Below, in pieces: positions 9,908-20,077 of a stretch of 36,369 bases of DNA. The DNA comes from Actinomycetota bacterium (GTDB lineage: Bacteria > Actinomycetota > Acidimicrobiia > Acidimicrobiales > Ilumatobacteraceae): contig WLIV01000036.1 of the NCBI GenBank assembly GCA_009702045.1, forward strand, positions 1 through 36,369, written 5' to 3'. Under the pieces are notes generated by a model, which saw nothing but the letters and a program-made list of their open reading frames with translations, made no database searches and was not told the DNA's origin. Within the stretch, counting starts at the first letter, position 1. Each line of letters begins with the position of its first letter. Both the position numbers and the translations under genes were made by a program.

Positions 9908-10711
9908 TCAGTTCGGTGAGGTGGTCAGCAACTCGGGCGCCATCGGACACTCCGCAGCGAAGCTCGCGTCGGCTGCAGGCTGCAATCCGAATGGGTCGGC
10001 CACCTGAGTGCACAGTCCAAGCGGAAGGATCTCGGCCTCCGCGTACCAGGGGGCGTCCGCGTCGGTGATGCGATCGACGATGGTGGCAAAGGTGCGTTCC
10101 GGTATCCGCCGTCCACGACCGACCACGGCAACCACGGGCACTCCGCTGCAATACGCCACGGACGCCGCCGCTCTGCTGCCCAGCGGCGCCAACAACTCCT
10201 CGCCGGACGCGGCGAACGCCTCGATCAGCACCGGATCCGACACGAGCACCGCTGCGGAGAGGGCAGCCGCCGGGATCAGTTCGCCCGACACGCCAGCACG
10301 TCCCAGGCGGCGGGCGAAGGCGTCAGCATCGCGGGTGGTGTCGAGCGCCAACACGGCGACGTCACCGCGGCGGATGATGGCTTCACCGGCGATATCGGGC
10401 CAGCCCACCGTGCACACACACGAATCAGCCGGCAGTGCCTCGAGCACCCACCGGATCGTGGGGTCGGCCTCGAACTCGTCGGCCAGACGATTCGCCACTT
10501 TGTAGGGTTCGGCGGCGGTGACGACATGCGAGCAGAGCCACCAGAGCGGCCCGCTGGTGACATGACGTTCAACGATGCGGCGGCAGGCGACCACCAGACC
10601 GGCAGGATCGTTCCCCATGCCACGTAAGGCTGAGGCGGTTTCGCGGACGAGCACCAGCGGGTCGGCACCCTCGGAGCGGGCAAGGTGGCGAAGCCGTTCC
10701 ATGGGGTGCAC
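9908..10711 (-). CDS. Hypothetical protein with weak eIF2B-like (Rossmann) features
   Basis: A 267-aa soluble protein I do not recognise with certainty. The second half has alternating hydrophobic strands and Gly/Ala turns. The stretch VLVSDPVLIEAFAASGEELLAPLGSRAAASVAYCSGVPVV (quoted in part: LGSRAAASVAYCSGVPVV) recalls the nucleotide-sugar-binding part of eIF2B-alpha/methylthioribose-isomerase-like proteins, where a GT-x-ALAAKAHGVP pattern is conserved; the similarity is weak. The start is uncertain: GTG 10711 has a TATGTT box ending 6 nt upstream, ATG 10702 lies three codons inside, and GTG 10729 extends it by six codons. It is divergent from the thioredoxin-fold gene. Confidence 0.6.
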   Translation of the reverse strand: MHPMERLRHLARSEGADPLVLVRETASALRGMGNDPAGLVVACRRIVERHVTSGPLWWLCSHVVTAAEPYKVANRLADEFEADPTIRWVLEALPADSCVCTVGWPDIAGEAIIRRGDVAVLALDTTRDADAFARRLGRAGVSGELIPAAALSAAVLVSDPVLIEAFAASGEELLAPLGSRAAASVAYCSGVPVVAVVGRGRRIPERTFATIVDRITDADAPWYAEAEILPLGLCTQVADPFGLQPAADASFAAECPMAPELLTTSPN

Positions 10712-10717
10712 GAGTGC

Positions 10718-10723
10718 AACATA
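10718..10723 (-). promoter_or_regulatory. Putative -10 box (leaderless)
   Basis: TATGTT ends 6 nt before GTG 10711 of the eIF2B-like gene and is the main reason for choosing that start. Confidence 0.35.
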
Positions 10724-10757
10724 TGCCACCGGATGGGCCGCGGCAGGTGTTGCGCGC

Positions 10758-10763
10758 TACCGT
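10758..10763 (+). promoter_or_regulatory. Putative -10 box (leaderless)
   Basis: TACCGT ends 8 nt before GTG 10772 of the thioredoxin-fold gene. It would also drive hrpB, which starts three bases after that gene. Confidence 0.4.
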
Positions 10764-10771
10764 TACCACTC

Positions 10772-11260
10772 GTGGCTAGCAACGTTGCCCTCGACATCAC
10801 GCTCACGACTCTCGGCGGTGAGACCCGTCCACTCAGCGAGTGGGTCACGACGTTCCATCTCGCCAGCGTGGTCCTCGACCCGTTCACCAACGAGAGCTCG
10901 TGGGTGCTCGACGCAGCGACTCGCGTGCTCGAGGGATTCCGCGATTCTGCAGTGCGCGTGAACCTCGTCCTCACCTGCACCAGCGACGAAGCCAAACAGT
11001 TCCTCGGACCGATTGCCGACCGCTTCCTGGTGTTCTGCGATCCCGAGCGCACGTTCGTGCGCAGCCTCGGCCTTGGCACGCTGCCGGCGTTCGTGTTCCT
11101 GCGAGCAGACGGCGAGGTCGTTGCCACCGCAGAAGGCTGGAACCCCAGCGAATGGCGCGCCGTCGCCAAGTCGATCGCCGCCACGACGGCGTGGAACGTG
11201 CCCAGCATCCCCGGTGCCGGCGACCCCTCGCCATTCCACGGCACACCCGCCCTCGGCTGA
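10772..11260 (+). CDS. Thioredoxin-fold protein without CxxC
   Basis: A 162-aa predicted cytoplasmic protein. The second half shows a thioredoxin-like order of elements: FLVFCDPERTFVRSLGLGTLPAFVFLRADGEVV near residues 88-118 has the cis-Pro (TLP) and following beta-hairpin typical of thioredoxin/AhpC-TSA proteins. The usual CxxC motif is absent; the region where it would lie reads LDPFTNESS, so a redox role is doubtful. GTG at 10772 is chosen because a TACCGT box lies 8 nt upstream and the frame further upstream overlaps the divergent gene. Its stop is three bases before the hrpB start, so the two are probably translated together. Confidence 0.7.
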   Translation: MASNVALDITLTTLGGETRPLSEWVTTFHLASVVLDPFTNESSWVLDAATRVLEGFRDSAVRVNLVLTCTSDEAKQFLGPIADRFLVFCDPERTFVRSLGLGTLPAFVFLRADGEVVATAEGWNPSEWRAVAKSIAATTAWNVPSIPGAGDPSPFHGTPALG

Positions 11261-11263
11261 CAC

Positions 11264-13744
11264 TTGTCCTTCGAGCTACCCGATCTCCCGGTCCTCGAAG
11301 CCCTTCCTACCGTCGTCGCCGCCCTCGCTGGCCCAGGCCAGGCGATCCTCGTCGCTCCGCCGGGCGCCGGCAAGACGACGCTGACGCCGCTCGTGCTGTT
11401 GGATGCAACGTGGCTGAACGGGCAGCGCATCGTGATGCTTGAACCGCGCCGCCTGGCGACCCGCGCCGCAGCTCGGCGGATGGCATCCCTGCTCGGTGAA
11501 TCCGTCGGGCACACCGTCGGCTATCAGACTCGAGACGAACGGGTGATGAGCGCGACCACGCGCATCGAGGTCGTCACCGAAGGAATCCTCACCCGCCGCT
11601 TGCAGCACGACCCGACGCTCGAAGGGTACGGGCTGGTCATCTTCGACGAGGTGCACGAGCGCAACCTGCCCACCGACCTCGGCCTGGCGCTGATGCTCGA
11701 TGCACGCGACACACTGCGGCCCGATCTGCGCGTGCTGGCGATGTCGGCCACACCCGACACCAAGGGCTTGCTGCGAGTGCTGGGCGCCGACACACCGGTC
11801 GCCCACAGCGACGGACGCACACATCCGATCGACATCATCTACGCACCGATGGGCAAGAACGACCGCGTGGCCGAGGCCACCGCCGCGCTGGTGCAGCGGG
11901 CATTGCGCGAGCAGACCGGCGACCTGCTCGTGTTCCTTCCCGGGTTGCCCGAGATCCGCCGGGTACTCGGAATGCTGGAGGGCACCGTGCCCCCGATGGT
12001 CGACGTGTACCCGTTGGCCGGAGCGCTCTCCCCCGCCGAACAGGATCTCGCGCTCGCCCCGTCACCTGCCGGCCGCCGACGAGTCGTGCTCGCCACCGAC
12101 ATCGCCGAGTCGTCGCTCACCGTCGATGGTGTGCGCGTGGTGGTCGACAGCGGACAGGCCAAAGTGCCAAGGGTCGACCAGCGCACGGGTATGACGAGGC
12201 TGACCACGGTCGCCATCAGCCGCGCCTCGGCCGACCAGCGCGCCGGGCGAGCCGGACGTGTTGAGCCCGGTGCCGCGTATCGGCTCTGGAGCAAGCTGGA
12301 GCAGGGCACGCGACGAGCGCACCTCGAGCCGGAGATCACCCAGGTCGATCTCGCGGGGCTGGCCTTGGAGTTGGCCGCCTGGGGCACACCGGTGGACGAA
12401 CTGCGTTGGGCCGACCCGCCCCCAGCGCGCAGCCTGCAGCAGGCCGGCGAGCTCCTGAGCCGGTTGGGTGCAGTCGACACCGATGGTCGCATCACCGACA
12501 GCGGGCGACGAATGTTGGCCCTGCCGCTGCACCCGCGACTCGCGCACATGGTCGGCGAGGCGAGCGAATCTGATCGACCGCTGGCATGCATCATCGCCGC
12601 ACTGCTCGACGAACGCGACGTGCTGCGCGGTCGCCCCGACGAACTGCCCGCCGACCTCGGTCTGCGTGTCGAGATCGTGTGCGGCACGCGCGACGATCGC
12701 GCCAACTGGCGCGATGTCGACCGTATGCGCGAGCGGGCTGTCGACATCGCCCGACGTGCGGGTGTGCGGATCGACTTTGACCGTGTCCGCGCCGATCACA
12801 GCGGTGTGGTGCTGGCCCTCGCCTACCCCGACCGCATTGCGGTGCGGCGCAGTCAGCCGGGTCAGTTCCAGATGCGCAGCGGGTCGTCCGCGTGGGTGGC
12901 GCCATCCGACTCACTGGCCGCCGAACAGTTCGTCGTCGCCGCCGACCTCGACGGCAAACGCGATACTGCCCGCATCCGGATCGGCGCCGCGATCGACGTT
13001 GCACAGGTGATCGACGTGATGGCCGCGCAGATCGAACGACGCGAGCAACTCGTGTGGGACAAGAGCCGCGACGAACTCGTACTGCGGATCGAGACCCGTC
13101 TGGGAGGCATGCTGCTCGACGAGCAGGTGCGTGCCGCCCCGGCTGGCGAGGCGACAACCGCTGCGCTGGTCGAGCGGGTGCGCACCACACGGTTGGCTGC
13201 GCTCGGCCGCACCGAAGGGTCGACGCTACGCGCACGCGTGGCGTTCCTACGGCGCACGATGGGAGCCGACGAATGGCCCGACTGGAGCGACGCGACGCTG
13301 CTGGCCACGCTCGACAAGTGGTTGGCCCCGTACCTCGTCGGCGCCACCGGAGCAGCCGACCTCGCCCGCCTCGACACCGACATGCTGCTGTCGTCGCAAC
13401 TCGGATGGGATCTGTCGGTGCGCCTCGCCGAGCTGGCACCGACGCATCTGGAGACGCCAGCCGGCCGCACGGCGGAGATCGACTACACACGCGAGGTGAT
13501 CACTGCGTCGGTCCGTGTGCAAGACCTGTTCGGGCTGCGCGAACACCCGTGCGTGGCCGACGGTCGGGTGCCGATCGCGCTGGAGCTGCTGTCTCCAGCC
13601 GACCGGCCGATCCAAATCACGAGCGACCTCCCCGGCTTCTGGGCCGGCACCTGGGCCGACGTCCGCAAGGACATGGCCGGCCGCTATCCCAAGCACCAGT
13701 GGCCGATCGACCCTGCCATCGCCACCCCCAAGCGCCTCAAATAG
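11264..13744 (+). CDS. hrpB: ATP-dependent helicase HrpB
   Basis: An 826-aa DEAH/RHA-type helicase of usual HrpB length. Motifs in order: Walker A APPGAGKTT (31-39, Lys37), motif Ia EPRRLATR (60-67), DEVH box (128-131) in IFDEVHERN, motif III SAT (161-163), motif VI DQRAGRAGR (near 325), then the helicase-associated domain and the HrpB-specific C-terminus (PKHQWPID near the end). In the family the role is RNA or ribonucleoprotein remodelling, poorly defined in vivo. The start is TTG at 11264, three bases after the stop of the thioredoxin-fold gene; no ATG or GTG is better placed before the Walker A motif, so translational coupling is likely. Confidence 0.95.
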   Translation: MSFELPDLPVLEALPTVVAALAGPGQAILVAPPGAGKTTLTPLVLLDATWLNGQRIVMLEPRRLATRAAARRMASLLGESVGHTVGYQTRDERVMSATTRIEVVTEGILTRRLQHDPTLEGYGLVIFDEVHERNLPTDLGLALMLDARDTLRPDLRVLAMSATPDTKGLLRVLGADTPVAHSDGRTHPIDIIYAPMGKNDRVAEATAALVQRALREQTGDLLVFLPGLPEIRRVLGMLEGTVPPMVDVYPLAGALSPAEQDLALAPSPAGRRRVVLATDIAESSLTVDGVRVVVDSGQAKVPRVDQRTGMTRLTTVAISRASADQRAGRAGRVEPGAAYRLWSKLEQGTRRAHLEPEITQVDLAGLALELAAWGTPVDELRWADPPPARSLQQAGELLSRLGAVDTDGRITDSGRRMLALPLHPRLAHMVGEASESDRPLACIIAALLDERDVLRGRPDELPADLGLRVEIVCGTRDDRANWRDVDRMRERAVDIARRAGVRIDFDRVRADHSGVVLALAYPDRIAVRRSQPGQFQMRSGSSAWVAPSDSLAAEQFVVAADLDGKRDTARIRIGAAIDVAQVIDVMAAQIERREQLVWDKSRDELVLRIETRLGGMLLDEQVRAAPAGEATTAALVERVRTTRLAALGRTEGSTLRARVAFLRRTMGADEWPDWSDATLLATLDKWLAPYLVGATGAADLARLDTDMLLSSQLGWDLSVRLAELAPTHLETPAGRTAEIDYTREVITASVRVQDLFGLREHPCVADGRVPIALELLSPADRPIQITSDLPGFWAGTWADVRKDMAGRYPKHQWPIDPAIATPKRLK

Positions 13745-13759
13745 CGGGGCGCGTCGAGG

Positions 13760-14530
13760 TCAGGCCGCAGCCTCCAACGCTGCGATCACGTCGTCCAACA
13801 TGCCACGGAGCGCGTGCTCCGTGGCTGCTGCTGACGTGTTCTCGACGCGCAGGTTGACGATCACCACCAGCCCGTCCGAATCCCACCACGACAGGCATTC
13901 GGGCAGCGCGTCGCCGGCCGCTGGCAGGCACCCGCTGCGCACCGTGCCGCCGCGCCACGACGACTTGCCCTCGTTGCTGAGTTGGACGTCGGCCCGACTG
14001 GTTTCCTGCAGGCGAATGACATCCTTGTTGCTGCCGCCGAACGCTGTGACGCCGAGGTCGGTGCCGGAGTTGCCTGACTGATCACCTGTGGAGCAACCGA
14101 CAATGCCCGTGATGTTGTCGAACTCGGCGAGTATGAAGTTGGCATCGGTGCTGTCCTGGAAGCGATCGAGCGAGGTCTTCTCCGACAGCAGCGTGACGAG
14201 CTTTGGGAAGTCACCGAGCGGGCAGTCGTCGACCGATGTCGGCTCAGTGTTTCCCTCGGTGACGCTCGCGAGCCCAGCCAGCGCCTGGGTTGTGTCGATC
14301 GCTGCACCTCCGCCGTTGGCGTCCGAGCCCGAATCGCGGCCGGCGACCAGCCATACCACGACGCCAGCGACCAGCAATACGACGAGGACGATCGCCGGCA
14401 CACCCTTGCGGCCGCGCGATTTCGGTGCGAGCACGGCCGGCGCGTACTGCGGTGCCGGGGGCGGCGGGGGCACCGGGGCACCCGGGAACGGCTGGGGCTG
14501 GGGTGGCGGCGGCGGCGGCAAGGTCGACAT
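13760..14530 (-). CDS. Pro-rich membrane-anchored hypothetical protein
   Basis: A 256-aa protein with a cytoplasmic N-terminus rich in proline (residues 5-36, runs of Pro with Gln and Ala), a basic patch KSRGRKG, one membrane segment (about 44-66) and an extracytoplasmic domain with four or five Cys. This build is common among actinobacterial proteins of unknown function with a DUF4190/DUF4333-like arrangement, but I cannot assign a family. ATG at 14530 is chosen because TATTGT ends 7 nt upstream; the frame is open further but the extra sequence is a repeat-derived stretch. It is convergent with hrpB, 15 nt apart. Confidence 0.75.
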   Translation of the reverse strand: MSTLPPPPPPQPQPFPGAPVPPPPPAPQYAPAVLAPKSRGRKGVPAIVLVVLLVAGVVVWLVAGRDSGSDANGGGAAIDTTQALAGLASVTEGNTEPTSVDDCPLGDFPKLVTLLSEKTSLDRFQDSTDANFILAEFDNITGIVGCSTGDQSGNSGTDLGVTAFGGSNKDVIRLQETSRADVQLSNEGKSSWRGGTVRSGCLPAAGDALPECLSWWDSDGLVVIVNLRVENTSAAATEHALRGMLDDVIAALEAAA

Positions 14531-14537
14531 GGTCGCC

Positions 14538-14543
14538 ACAATA
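14538..14543 (-). promoter_or_regulatory. Putative -10 box (leaderless)
   Basis: TATTGT ends 7 nt before ATG 14530 and there is no ribosome-binding site. Confidence 0.5.
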
Positions 14544-14577
14544 CGCCGCACCATCCACCCGGCCGTTCCAAGCCATC

Positions 14578-14627
14578 CCCTCGAACCCACCCACCCTCTC
14601 GAACCCACCCAACCACCCACCCTCTCG
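14578..14627. repeat. Imperfect tandem repeat, CCCACCCTCTCGAAC-type units
   Basis: Three imperfect units containing CCTCTCGAACCCACCC or CCCCTCGAACCCACCC follow one another in the gap between the Pro-rich protein and the DUF559 gene. They lie directly next to the palindromic repeat that follows. No function can be assigned. Confidence 0.6.
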
Positions 14628-14628
14628 C

Positions 14629-14680
14629 CTCTGTGTCGCGGGCGCCACCTCCATCGACGGCGGTCGCCGCCGCGACAGAG
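14629..14680. repeat. Palindromic repeat family, left copy
   Basis: The 13-mer TCTGTGTCGCGGG (14630-14642) is followed by the inverted partner CCGCGACAGAG (14670-14680), forming an 11-bp stem with a 2-nt bulge. The same 13-mer occurs beyond the other end of the neighbouring DUF559 gene. An adjacent GCCACCTCCA is also shared in inverted form with the right-hand copies. Confidence 0.65.
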
Positions 14681-14726
14681 ACGGGGGCCTTGCCAGAATT
14701 CGGGTCGCGCCGTACCCAGTGATGGC

Positions 14727-15629
14727 GTGGAAACCCATCGGAGATTGATCGAACTTGCCGCAGCGAACCAACGGATCCTCACCGAGCGAACAGCACTGAC
14801 GGTGCTCAGCCCGGCAGCATGGCAACGTCACCAGGCGGCCGGGTTGTGGATGCAGATCGCACCGGGGTACTTCCATCACTCTGCGACGCTGCTCACGTTC
14901 GAGATGCAGGTGCGGGCATGCAGCGGATGGGTTGGCATACGTGGTGCCCTGTACGGGTCGACGGCGCTGCGCTGGTTGGGCATCGACGTCCCGGAACCTC
15001 ATCATCCCGAGTTCCTCGTGCCACGTGACCGGCGGGCCATCCCAAACTGGGTGACCGTGCACACCACGGTGAAATGGGACAACGGCGACATCATCCGCCA
15101 CCGCGGGGTTCGCACGACCACTGCGACCAGAGCGGTCATCGACTACGCGGCACAGGGTGTCTCCGCTGGCGACCTCGAACATGCCATCGACGAAGCCATC
15201 CGCCTACGTCGCACCGCGCTCGTCCGATTGAAACGACGCCTCGCCGGCCTGAGCGGCAAGGGGCGCCACGGTTGCGCCCTGCTGCGTGAACTCCTGCTGG
15301 ACTCGGGCGGCGAGTCACATCTCGAGCGACGATTCCTCAGGCTGTTGCGAGAGCAGGGTCTGCCGCGTCCAGAGTGCCAGGTCGTGTTCAAGCGTGACGG
15401 CGAAACCGTGGCCCGGGTCGATTTCGTGTTCCCGAACGAGAGGTTCATCGTTGAGGTGTCCGGCCGTATCGGCCATACCTCCGATCGAGACCGGCAGCGT
15501 GACGCTCGCCGACGCAACCATCTCCAAAGTCTCGGCAACGAGGTGATCGAGTTCACCACCGCCGATGTCATCGACGACCCGGGCTATGTCCTCGCCACCC
15601 TCCGAGCGTCCCTCCATGTCCGCCCGTGA
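14727..15629 (+). CDS. AbiEi-like / DUF559 (Vsr-like nuclease fold) protein
   Basis: A 300-aa protein. The N-terminal part (ERTALTVLSPAAWQRHQAAGLW, then PGYFHHSATLLTF) resembles the winged-helix domain of AbiEi-type proteins, and the middle (GALYGSTALRWLGI, RTTTATRAVIDYA) matches the AbiEi core. The C-terminus (ESHLERRFLRLLREQGLPRPECQ, ARVDFVFPNERFIVEVSG, EVIEFTTADVIDDP) is the DUF559 domain, a PD-(D/E)xK fold related to Vsr endonuclease, with the Asp of VDFVFP and Glu of VEVSG as candidate metal ligands. Such proteins are common and multicopy in actinobacteria; no AbiEii-like toxin gene is adjacent. GTG 14727 is the likely start. The gene is bracketed by copies of one palindromic repeat family. 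Confidence 0.8.
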   Translation: METHRRLIELAAANQRILTERTALTVLSPAAWQRHQAAGLWMQIAPGYFHHSATLLTFEMQVRACSGWVGIRGALYGSTALRWLGIDVPEPHHPEFLVPRDRRAIPNWVTVHTTVKWDNGDIIRHRGVRTTTATRAVIDYAAQGVSAGDLEHAIDEAIRLRRTALVRLKRRLAGLSGKGRHGCALLRELLLDSGGESHLERRFLRLLREQGLPRPECQVVFKRDGETVARVDFVFPNERFIVEVSGRIGHTSDRDRQRDARRRNHLQSLGNEVIEFTTADVIDDPGYVLATLRASLHVRP

Positions 15630-15654
15630 CGTCCAGCCATGGAGGTCACGGGCG
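15621..15654 (+). terminator. Hairpin over the DUF559 stop codon
   Basis: CGCCCGTGAC (15621-15630) and GTCACGGGCG (15645-15654) are perfectly complementary, a 10-bp stem with a 14-nt loop that includes the TGA. There is no T-run, so it may act in mRNA stability rather than intrinsic termination. Confidence 0.4.
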
Positions 15655-15739
15655 CGACACAGAGACGGGCGGATCGCGCGACCCCCGTCTGTGTCGCGGG
15701 ATGGAGCACCAGAGTTGGAGGTCAGGCCCGCGACACAGA
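15654..15739. repeat. Palindromic repeat family, right copies
   Basis: Three related segments alternate in orientation. GCGACACAGAGACGGG (15654-15669) pairs with CCCGTCTGTGTCGC (15684-15697) with a 2-nt bulge. TCTGTGTCGCGGG (15688-15700) pairs perfectly over 13 bp with CCCGCGACACAGA (15727-15739). The middle arm can thus pair to either side. The same 13-mer is present at 14630-14642. Confidence 0.7.
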
Positions 15740-15781
15740 AGTCGAAGGGGAGGGGGTTTCGGGGTGGACAGGGGACGGACG

Positions 15782-15787
15782 TAGCCT
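15782..15787 (+). promoter_or_regulatory. Putative -10 box of fumarase (leaderless)
   Basis: TAGCCT ends 6 nt before the fumarase ATG and no ribosome-binding site is present. Confidence 0.45.
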
Positions 15788-15793
15788 GAGCAC

Positions 15794-17445
<1,652 letters not shown>

Positions 17446-17452
<7 letters not shown>

Positions 17453-17480
17453 CGGCTCGGCACCGCCGATTGCTCAGCGC
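17446..17480. terminator. Possible bidirectional terminator between convergent genes
   Basis: GCGCTGA (17446-17452) and TCAGCGC (17474-17480) are complementary and contain the stop codons of fumarase and of the oxidoreductase. The 21-nt loop can form an inner CGGC/GCCG stem. There is no T-run on either side, so the call is weak. Confidence 0.3.
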
Positions 17481-18379
17481 GCTTCGTGCATCACGGACAC
17501 GGTTCGCTGCCACTCCTCGGCGTCGACGGCCACGATCGCAGCGTTGAAATCGTCGACGCCAATCGCCTTCAGCTCGAGCAGACGCTCGCGCACCTCCGTC
17601 TCGTCGCCGATGATGGCCAGGTCGGCAGGACCAGCCACACCCTCTTTGTCCATCATCTTGCGATAGCTGGGCAACGTGTTGTACATCGCGAACGTCTCGG
17701 CGGCACGGCGGCGAGTGCCGTCGACATCATCGGTAACGCATACCGGCAACGAGGCCACGATGCGCGGCGCCGCACGACCTGCGTCGGCAGCGGCCTGGCG
17801 GATGGTGGGGACGGTGAAGTCGCGCAAGGTCTCCGGACCCACGCACCATGTGGTGGTTCCATCGGCAAGCGCGCCGGCGACACGGAGCATCTGCGCCCCG
17901 AGCGCAGCCACGATCACCGGAGGACGCTCAGCGCCGGGAACACTGATCGAGCCGCGCACAGTAAACGCCTCACCCTCGAAGCGCACGTTGTCCTGGTCGA
18001 GCAACGGCATCATCGCCGAGAGGTACTCACGCAGGTGCCGCACCGGCTTGTCGAACGAAATGCCCCACATCCCCTCGACCACGACTTGGTGCGAGAGACC
18101 AATACCCAGGCACAGTCGATTACCGATGGCGGCCTGCACCGTGAGCGCCTGCTGCGCCAACATCATCGGGTGCCGCGGATAGGTGGGCACCACGGAGGTA
18201 CCCAGTTCGATCTCGGGCACTTCGCGGCCGATGATCGCCATCGCGGTGAGCGTGTCGAGACCGAAGGTCTGCGCCGCCCAGAACGTGTTGATGCCAGCAT
18301 CGTGCGCCGCACGAGCCTGATCGACGAGTTGATCGAGTGTTCCGGCGTTGTCCACCGCTGCCATGATTCCGAGACGCAT
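17474..18379 (-). CDS. LLM-class F420-dependent oxidoreductase
   Basis: A 301-aa luciferase-like protein. Typical parts are MRLGIMAAVDNAGTLDQLVD, FWAAQTFGLDTLTAMAIIG, GTSVVPTYPRHPMMLAQQA and LCLGIGLSHQVVVEG, then AALGAQMLRVAGALADG. From memory it resembles the actinobacterial MSMEG_4879-type F420 family (TIGR03564). Members use coenzyme F420 for hydride transfer to mostly unknown substrates. ATG 18379 is preferred because TACCGT ends 6 nt upstream; the frame stays open farther but that part overlaps the ABC-F gene. Substrate unknown. Confidence 0.85.
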   Translation of the reverse strand: MRLGIMAAVDNAGTLDQLVDQARAAHDAGINTFWAAQTFGLDTLTAMAIIGREVPEIELGTSVVPTYPRHPMMLAQQALTVQAAIGNRLCLGIGLSHQVVVEGMWGISFDKPVRHLREYLSAMMPLLDQDNVRFEGEAFTVRGSISVPGAERPPVIVAALGAQMLRVAGALADGTTTWCVGPETLRDFTVPTIRQAAADAGRAAPRIVASLPVCVTDDVDGTRRRAAETFAMYNTLPSYRKMMDKEGVAGPADLAIIGDETEVRERLLELKAIGVDDFNAAIVAVDAEEWQRTVSVMHEAR

Positions 18380-18385
18380 GCGCGC

Positions 18386-18391
18386 ACGGTA
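18386..18391 (-). promoter_or_regulatory. Putative -10 box (leaderless)
   Basis: TACCGT ends 6 nt before ATG 18379. It lies in the 20-nt gap after the ABC-F gene, so the oxidoreductase may be transcribed both alone and by read-through. Confidence 0.4.
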
Positions 18392-18399
18392 CACGCGGC

Positions 18400-20016
<1,617 letters not shown>

Positions 20017-20077
20017 GACTTGTCCAGGGTGGCGGGCGAACACGTCGCGCGCAACCGACGTGACCAGAACGACGGCC

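Follow-up and report, generated by a model that had tools for sequence, protein, structure and literature searches.

The window analysed here, a stretch of 36,369 nucleotides from a member of the Ilumatobacteraceae (contig WLIV01000036.1, positions 1 to 36,369), carries a DUF559 gene with palindromes on both sides (Table 1). Judged from the sequence, translation most likely starts at the GTG at 14727; the translation used in the searches, and with it the residue numbering, begins at 14706. The 13-mer TCTGTGTCGCGGG is present exactly at 14630-14642 (+), 15688-15700 (+) and 15727-15739 (-), and relatives with two mismatches lie at 14669-14681 (-) and 15651-15663 (-), in agreement with the copies and shorter relatives listed by the initial annotation. 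The 13-mer arms pair to form palindromes of about 52 bp, one upstream of the gene and two in tandem downstream. In the left palindrome, the exact arm at 14630-14642 is paired with the two-mismatch arm at 14669-14681. The first right palindrome has a strong stem at 15618-15658 and overlaps the stop codon (15627-15629), and the second, in tandem with it, has perfect 13-bp arms. The initial annotation had placed the motif only at the ends of the gene, which is correct for the exact copies within the window but not for the genome, where the element occupies 33 places.

The palindromes had also been described as hairpins. As single-stranded DNA, the right palindromes folded much better than their shuffles, with z -8.6 for the region 15615-15745 and z -6.9 and -5.8 for 15684-15743 and 15618-15670, respectively; the left palindrome (14625-14690) did not (z -0.66). 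Loose counting with up to 3 mismatches to TCTGTGTCGCGGG gave no excess (30 matches vs 28.5 expected), and the signal therefore comes from copies that match exactly or nearly so, and from the way they pair into palindromes. A known RNA family was rejected as the identity of the palindromes, the best match being a sub-threshold mir-616 (E 0.078).

Table 1. Coordinates of the DUF559 gene, its predicted protein parts and the flanking palindromes in the window.
Feature	Position	Strand	Evidence
Left palindrome, 5' of the DUF559 gene	14630..14681	.	model match 14624-14687, 66.6 bits
DUF559 gene	14727..15629	+	Pfam DUF559, PADLOC AbiEi; likeliest start, from sequence
N-terminal AbiEi-like part (predicted), residues 9-201	14730..15308	+	Foldseek, structure alignment, PADLOC
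C-terminal Vsr/EDxHD-like nuclease domain (predicted), residues 200-306	15303..15623	+	Pfam, structure alignment, residues
First right palindrome	15618..15663	.	model match 15607-15669, 57.6 bits
Second right palindrome	15688..15739	.	model match 15682-15745, 67.4 bits

The window protein matches DUF559 in Pfam (2.8e-7) and AbiEi in PADLOC (7.6e-17), and the NCBIfam search returned no family. Its AlphaFold2 model (mean pLDDT 88, pTM 0.71) resembles AbiEi 6y8q_A over residues 9-201 (Foldseek E 4.1e-7; structure alignment Z 12.8, rmsd 5.7, 184 aligned). Residues ~200-306 resemble NGO0050 (3hrl; Z 12.4, rmsd 2.7, 90 aligned), I-Bth0305I (3r3p_A; Z 12.2, rmsd 2.8, 94 aligned) and Vsr (1cw0_A; Z 10.2, rmsd 2.7, 98 aligned), and structure prediction thus bears out the Vsr-like C-terminal fold that had been noticed in the sequence. 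The nuclease domain contains E207 (codon at 15324), D239 (15420), E250 (15453) and H257 (15474), which are conserved in 125, 124, 123 and 120 of 129 proteins, respectively, the remainder including gaps. E207, D239 and E250 occur together in 65 of the 68 genes with common flanks (score >=18 in the flank test described below) and in 57 of the 61 others. The model accordingly predicts a fusion protein, in which an N-terminal AbiEi-like DNA-binding part, the putative palindrome-binding part, precedes a nuclease resembling Vsr and I-Bth0305I.

The AbiEii toxin (DUF1814) is absent from the seven neighbouring proteins (window 9911-20043; Pfam, E<=0.01). The AAA_21 model, whose Pfam description reads putative AbiEii toxin AAA domain but which is distinct from DUF1814, matches the ABC-type ATPase at 18403-20043, as do 13 other, mostly ATPase, Pfam models. 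The DUF559 family profile is matched in 60 of the 149 Actinomycetota genomes searched, and several of them have ten or more matches.

Copies in the own genome and in relatives

TCTGTGTCGCGGG occurs at 11 exact places in the own genome, and at 35 places when one mismatch is allowed, vs 5 for the reversed pattern. A whole-element model built from 20 own-genome copies detected 33 distinct places at E<0.01 (the 20 copies used for building and 13 further ones, counted by hand from 75 both-strand rows) and 40 at E<=1. Twelve sites were examined with rough gene calls. Ten were outside called reading frames, four of them between divergent genes, six between tandem genes and none between convergent genes; these ten include L004, whose element is overlapped by the start called for the following frame. 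The other two were inside frames. Terminators were rejected as the main role because, of the 12 copies, four have divergent and none has convergent neighbours. Copies inside called frames, again under rough gene calls, are those of L010 (G000:C55:115162-115224) and L025 (G000:C35:18168-18231). Partial palindrome copies beside C runs at the first bases of contigs C10 and C19 (L019 and L020) are probably assembly ends.

The arms of the own-genome copies are alike throughout, with values of 0.89 between loci and 0.91 within tandem pairs, but their centres are locus-specific (0.50 between loci, 0.81 within 7 tandem pairs). The arms show no covariation beyond shuffles within the genome. A conserved hairpin was rejected on this ground, and a folded-hairpin substrate is not supported. 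A RAYT in the own genome was also rejected as the partner, since PF01797 (Y1/HUH transposase, RAYT) had no match there at E<=0.001.

Two further DUF559 genes of the same genome were observed. The gene at G000:C54:121912-122481 (L220) has the element GGGCGCGATTCG on both sides, which differs from the element of the window gene. The closest paralogue, G000:C1:205542-206444 (L131; 61% identity), has no common flank element (score 10).

In eight of the 14 same-genus relatives (G002, G004, G006, G008, G009, G010, G013 and G014), the fumarase gene is preceded, at no more than about 200 bp, by the best match of the window protein; in G011 the distance is 819 bp, and in the remaining five the best match lies elsewhere. 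The presence of the DUF559 gene near fumarase in most of these relatives indicates that it is old and largely vertically inherited at that place. The three dispersed sites checked in the nearest relative, G009, were all occupied. The comparisons were few and revealed neither an empty site nor a target duplication; nor did they yield an empty allele paired with an occupied one, as would be expected where a homing endonuclease gene invades a cognate site lacking it. The small mobile unit that the initial annotation had considered, with a clean empty site in relatives lacking the gene, thus gains nothing from these loci. When the neighbours of 15 sites in relatives, the best-scoring ones, were compared with 13 own-genome loci, homologous neighbours were found for L055 (G009) and L056 (G014); the neighbours of L079 gave one weak match (26% identity), and those of the other 12 had no homologue at the 13 loci.

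Three variants of the element, V0, V1 and V2, were counted as exact patterns in 15 genomes of the genus. V0 was present in G000 (11 copies), G009 (18) and G014 (1), V1 in G006 (6) and G013 (10), and V2 in G004 (13); all other counts were zero, as were those of the reversed control patterns in all 15 genomes. In G000, G009, G006, G013 and G004, the flanks of the gene upstream of fumarase bear the genome's own variant, exactly or with a mismatch, and in G014 a near-V0 form is on one flank. Each variant is therefore restricted to genomes whose orthologue bears the same or a near form.

At E<=0.1, the element model matched 13 of the 14 same-genus relatives and one of the 10 other genomes of the family (G018). 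The window protein was without a match at E<=1e-5 in seven of these 10 genomes, six of which also had no palindrome match. The model (R1) had no match in G021, G022 and G024, the three family members from other genera in which DUF559 relatives are present, as would be expected if the elements there differ. Elsewhere in the order, eight of 16 genomes gave weak R1 matches, with best E values from 0.0135 to 0.095, which are taken as chance.

Flanking elements of DUF559 genes in other genomes

The flank test scores the sequence common to the 400 bp left and the 400 bp right of a gene. The first set was drawn from genomes of the order and consisted of 100 DUF559 loci, all with a profile match, of which 95 were usable after five at contig edges had been dropped; other genes in the same loci (n=353) and random intervals (n=652) were the controls. 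A score >=20 was reached by 35 of the 95 DUF559 genes, vs no control gene and one random interval, and a score >=16 by 49, vs four and eight. Of 54 loci on named contigs, 23 were new after removal of 28 duplicates, one contig-edge duplicate and two without a reading frame, and 16 of them scored >=20 (12 of 17 without the six loci from genomes already sampled, by accession and position). In the pooled non-redundant set of 129 genes, which includes small loci around window-protein matches and counts orthologues of close species separately, 58 scored >=20, 68 >=18 and 76 >=16, while 46 scored under 14. The statistic is conservative, since the window gene (score 16) and its G006 orthologue (13) score low, yet both have palindromes on each side.

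Of the common elements of the 68 genes scoring >=18, 46 score as palindromic, with a median span of 47 bp (IQR 43.5-51), and 22 are not clearly so; 43 exceed the 95th percentile of random segments for palindrome score. Tandem copies, at a median spacing of 62.5 bp, are present on the left of 14 genes and on the right of 15, and the right element begins a median of 10.5 bp past the stop codon. The left and right elements are inverted in 21 genes, match both ways in 35 and are direct in 12.

These elements are specific to their genes. With an element match defined as a score >=16 among the same 68 genes, no match was found in 2,229 gene pairs whose proteins were <60% identical, and four were found in the 49 pairs with proteins >=60% identical. 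Protein similarity and element similarity gave a Spearman coefficient of 0.12 and a Mantel r of 0.30, a value reached in 0 of 2000 permutations. The link of DUF559 genes to gene-specific flanking palindromes across the order is strong. The initial annotation had asked for a genome-wide count of the 13-mer and for its enrichment next to DUF559 genes, and had named a motif scattered without such a link as evidence against its reading. The motif is indeed scattered (35 near-exact places), but the link to DUF559 genes is present in the flanks. The near-exact copy counts and the controls of the flank test together rule out a chance origin of the repeats.

Dispersal of the other elements was examined by BLAST for 51 genes, with loci fetched through a model match left out. 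Away from the gene, 28 copies were found in the gene's own genome, a density of 3.3/Mb, compared with 0.10/Mb in other genomes. The latter had 11 copies, of which at least six are flanks of homologous DUF559 genes. An own-genome copy was found for 10 of the 51 genes in the DNA covered. Twenty-two of the 28 own-genome copies came from G026, a single-contig genome that was the source of most of the DNA covered (1.2 Mb). These 1.2 Mb contain six DUF559 genes, each with a private element family on both sides. Profiles of elements A, B, E and F found 6, 6, 2 and 6 copies elsewhere, several in tandem, and had no match in the reversed sequence. Iterative profiles of elements C and D recovered themselves alone, and BLAST found 3 and 5 further copies of these elements. 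An exact-word search of the 1.2 Mb for palindrome families gave none at the threshold used.

The window protein had no tblastn match in the plasmid and phage collections and no confirmed match in viral contigs. A more distant family member matched four plasmid records, one of Tsukamurella, nearly full-length, and three of Thermus, which span the first 151 residues of the query alone. In the former (T. tyrosinosolvens NZ_LR134454.1, L344:2856-3891), the DUF559 gene has a private 41-bp palindrome at each end, with 93% complementarity over 42 nt. In a search of 72,556 plasmid records at E<=0.01, this palindrome matched three records, all of T. tyrosinosolvens: NZ_LR134454.1, with three palindrome places, and two others. 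Tsukamurella belongs to another class, and its locus fits the flanking pattern; as the lone nearly full-length plasmid match, it is a single example. Together with the order-wide flank test, this locus upholds the comparison with REP-type palindromes and an associated nuclease-like gene made at the outset.

Explanations for the gene and its palindromes

We consider it somewhat probable that the gene and its palindromes form a REP-like partnership, with an AbiEi-Vsr enzyme in the place of RAYT and copying by cut-and-repair. The end palindromes of ~47-52 bp would be the protein's own two-half-site target, like the paired AbiEi repeats, and the same target would be dispersed in the genome as single or tandem copies. 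The protein would bind the conserved arms, the upstream copy regulating its own gene, and the nuclease would nick or cut at or near the target sites. Subsequent repair may copy palindromes to new or existing sites. Such copying would keep the arms alike genome-wide, and the protein and arms would change together between species. The analysis shows the palindromes, their presence at both ends of the gene, their gene specificity and dispersal, the conserved nuclease residues and the predicted fold; binding and cutting, and copying as the cause of the dispersal, we infer. Against this reading stand the modest copy numbers, the occupied sites in G009, the constant place of the gene upstream of fumarase in eight of 14 relatives, the missing covariation of the arms, the low flank scores (46 of 129 genes under 14, and 16 for the window gene) and the 22 of 68 elements that are not clearly palindromic. 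We take the palindromes to be sites that the gene's own product would bind as duplex DNA, because in length and in their two half-sites they agree with AbiEi operators and hairpin covariation is absent. Beyond this partnership, we suggest more tentatively, at rather less than even confidence, that the loci represent an undescribed selfish palindrome system of Actinomycetota. In such a system, an antitoxin-derived domain and a Vsr/homing-type nuclease would spread or homogenise gene-private duplex targets of ~50 bp by cutting and repair, with several independent pairs per genome.

The chief alternative, which we regard as rather unlikely, is a network with no function other than regulation. The palindromes would then be only operators through which the AbiEi-like part represses its own gene, the dispersed copies would be regulon or chromosome-organising sites under selection, and the nuclease would serve repair or defence with no copying. 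AbiEi and Rv2827c bind inverted repeats upstream of their operons (PMC7319586), and the similar arms (0.89), dissimilar centres (0.50) and lack of covariation are as in duplex sites. The gene orientation around the 12 sites (divergent at four, tandem at six) and the retention of all three dispersed sites in G009 also agree with operators. On the other hand, operators do not readily explain the copies just past the stop codon (median 10.5 bp), the tandem copies with matching centres (0.81 vs 0.50) or the six gene-element families in 1.2 Mb of G026.

It is improbable that the palindromes are terminal inverted repeats of an unrelated transposase, with the DUF559 gene as a passenger of a composite element. 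The ends match inverted or both ways in most genes, like transposon ends, but the DUF559 gene alone lies between the window palindromes, the elements are gene-specific and match between close DUF559 relatives only, and the own genome has no match to Y1, the transposase family searched for. That ordinary interspersed hairpins (terminators or REPs) lie beside the gene by accident is very hard to credit: the motif does occur at 33 places, with ten of 12 examined sites outside called frames, but none of the 353 control genes in the same loci reached a score of 20, divergent genes surround four of the 12 copies and convergent genes none, and flanks match within a gene but not from one gene to another.

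If the partnership is real, it would be a second route to REP-like repeats, via a nuclease of a different class. It would also give a role to DUF559/AbiEi-like genes, which are now named by domain alone, and provide many natural protein-DNA pairs for the study of the evolution of DNA specificity.

Comparison with known systems

In RAYT/REP systems (PMC2817692, PMC8266576), the gene lies between two palindromes, the palindromes are dispersed genome-wide and in clusters, and protein and palindrome co-evolve. As in these systems (REPtron), the DUF559 gene is flanked on both sides, its palindromes are dispersed mainly between genes, and protein and palindrome vary together. However, the flanked protein is DUF559/AbiEi-like and not an HUH Y1 transposase (PF01797), and the palindromes are ~47-52 bp long and have no hairpin covariation within the genome. 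The CGTC-tagged REPs, as they are described in PMC3733652, are likewise short dispersed palindromes without a known RAYT, no dedicated transposase having been found, and their spread without one is described there as an open question. These REPs differ from the present elements in their 8-9-bp stems and unpaired CGTC end.

The type IV antitoxins AbiEi and Rv2827c resemble the window protein in the predicted N-terminal fold, an AbiEi winged-helix plus C-terminal domain. According to PMC7319586, the AbiEi site upstream of its operon consists of a pair of inverted repeats, each of 23 bp, with a 3-bp gap, and Rv2827c binds two pairs of such repeats in the same position. The antitoxin genes and the present genes alike have paired inverted-repeat sites of ~50 bp, sometimes tandem, near the gene start, and the median span of the palindromic elements, 47 bp, fits the 49-bp AbiEi operator (23+3+23 bp). 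The present genes differ in the extra nuclease domain, in the lack of AbiEii among the seven neighbours, and in having sites downstream of the gene and dispersed.

The C-terminal domain shares its predicted fold, acidic residues and His with Vsr and with I-Bth0305I (EDxHD), which forms a dimer on its target, a site of nearly 60 bp (PMC3943268). Unlike these enzymes, the window protein is encoded by a free-standing gene upstream of fumarase and has an AbiEi-like part, and its nuclease activity is predicted. A DUF559/Vsr-like nuclease domain is also found in Caulobacter VsrA, for which PMC12907096 proposes a role in mismatch repair. A literature search, mainly of titles and abstracts with few subscription papers and no bioRxiv, found DUF559 or AbiEi-Vsr genes nowhere tied to palindromes. 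The arrangement itself is known from other palindrome systems; in the present genes an unrelated enzyme stands at its centre, a combination absent from the papers searched.
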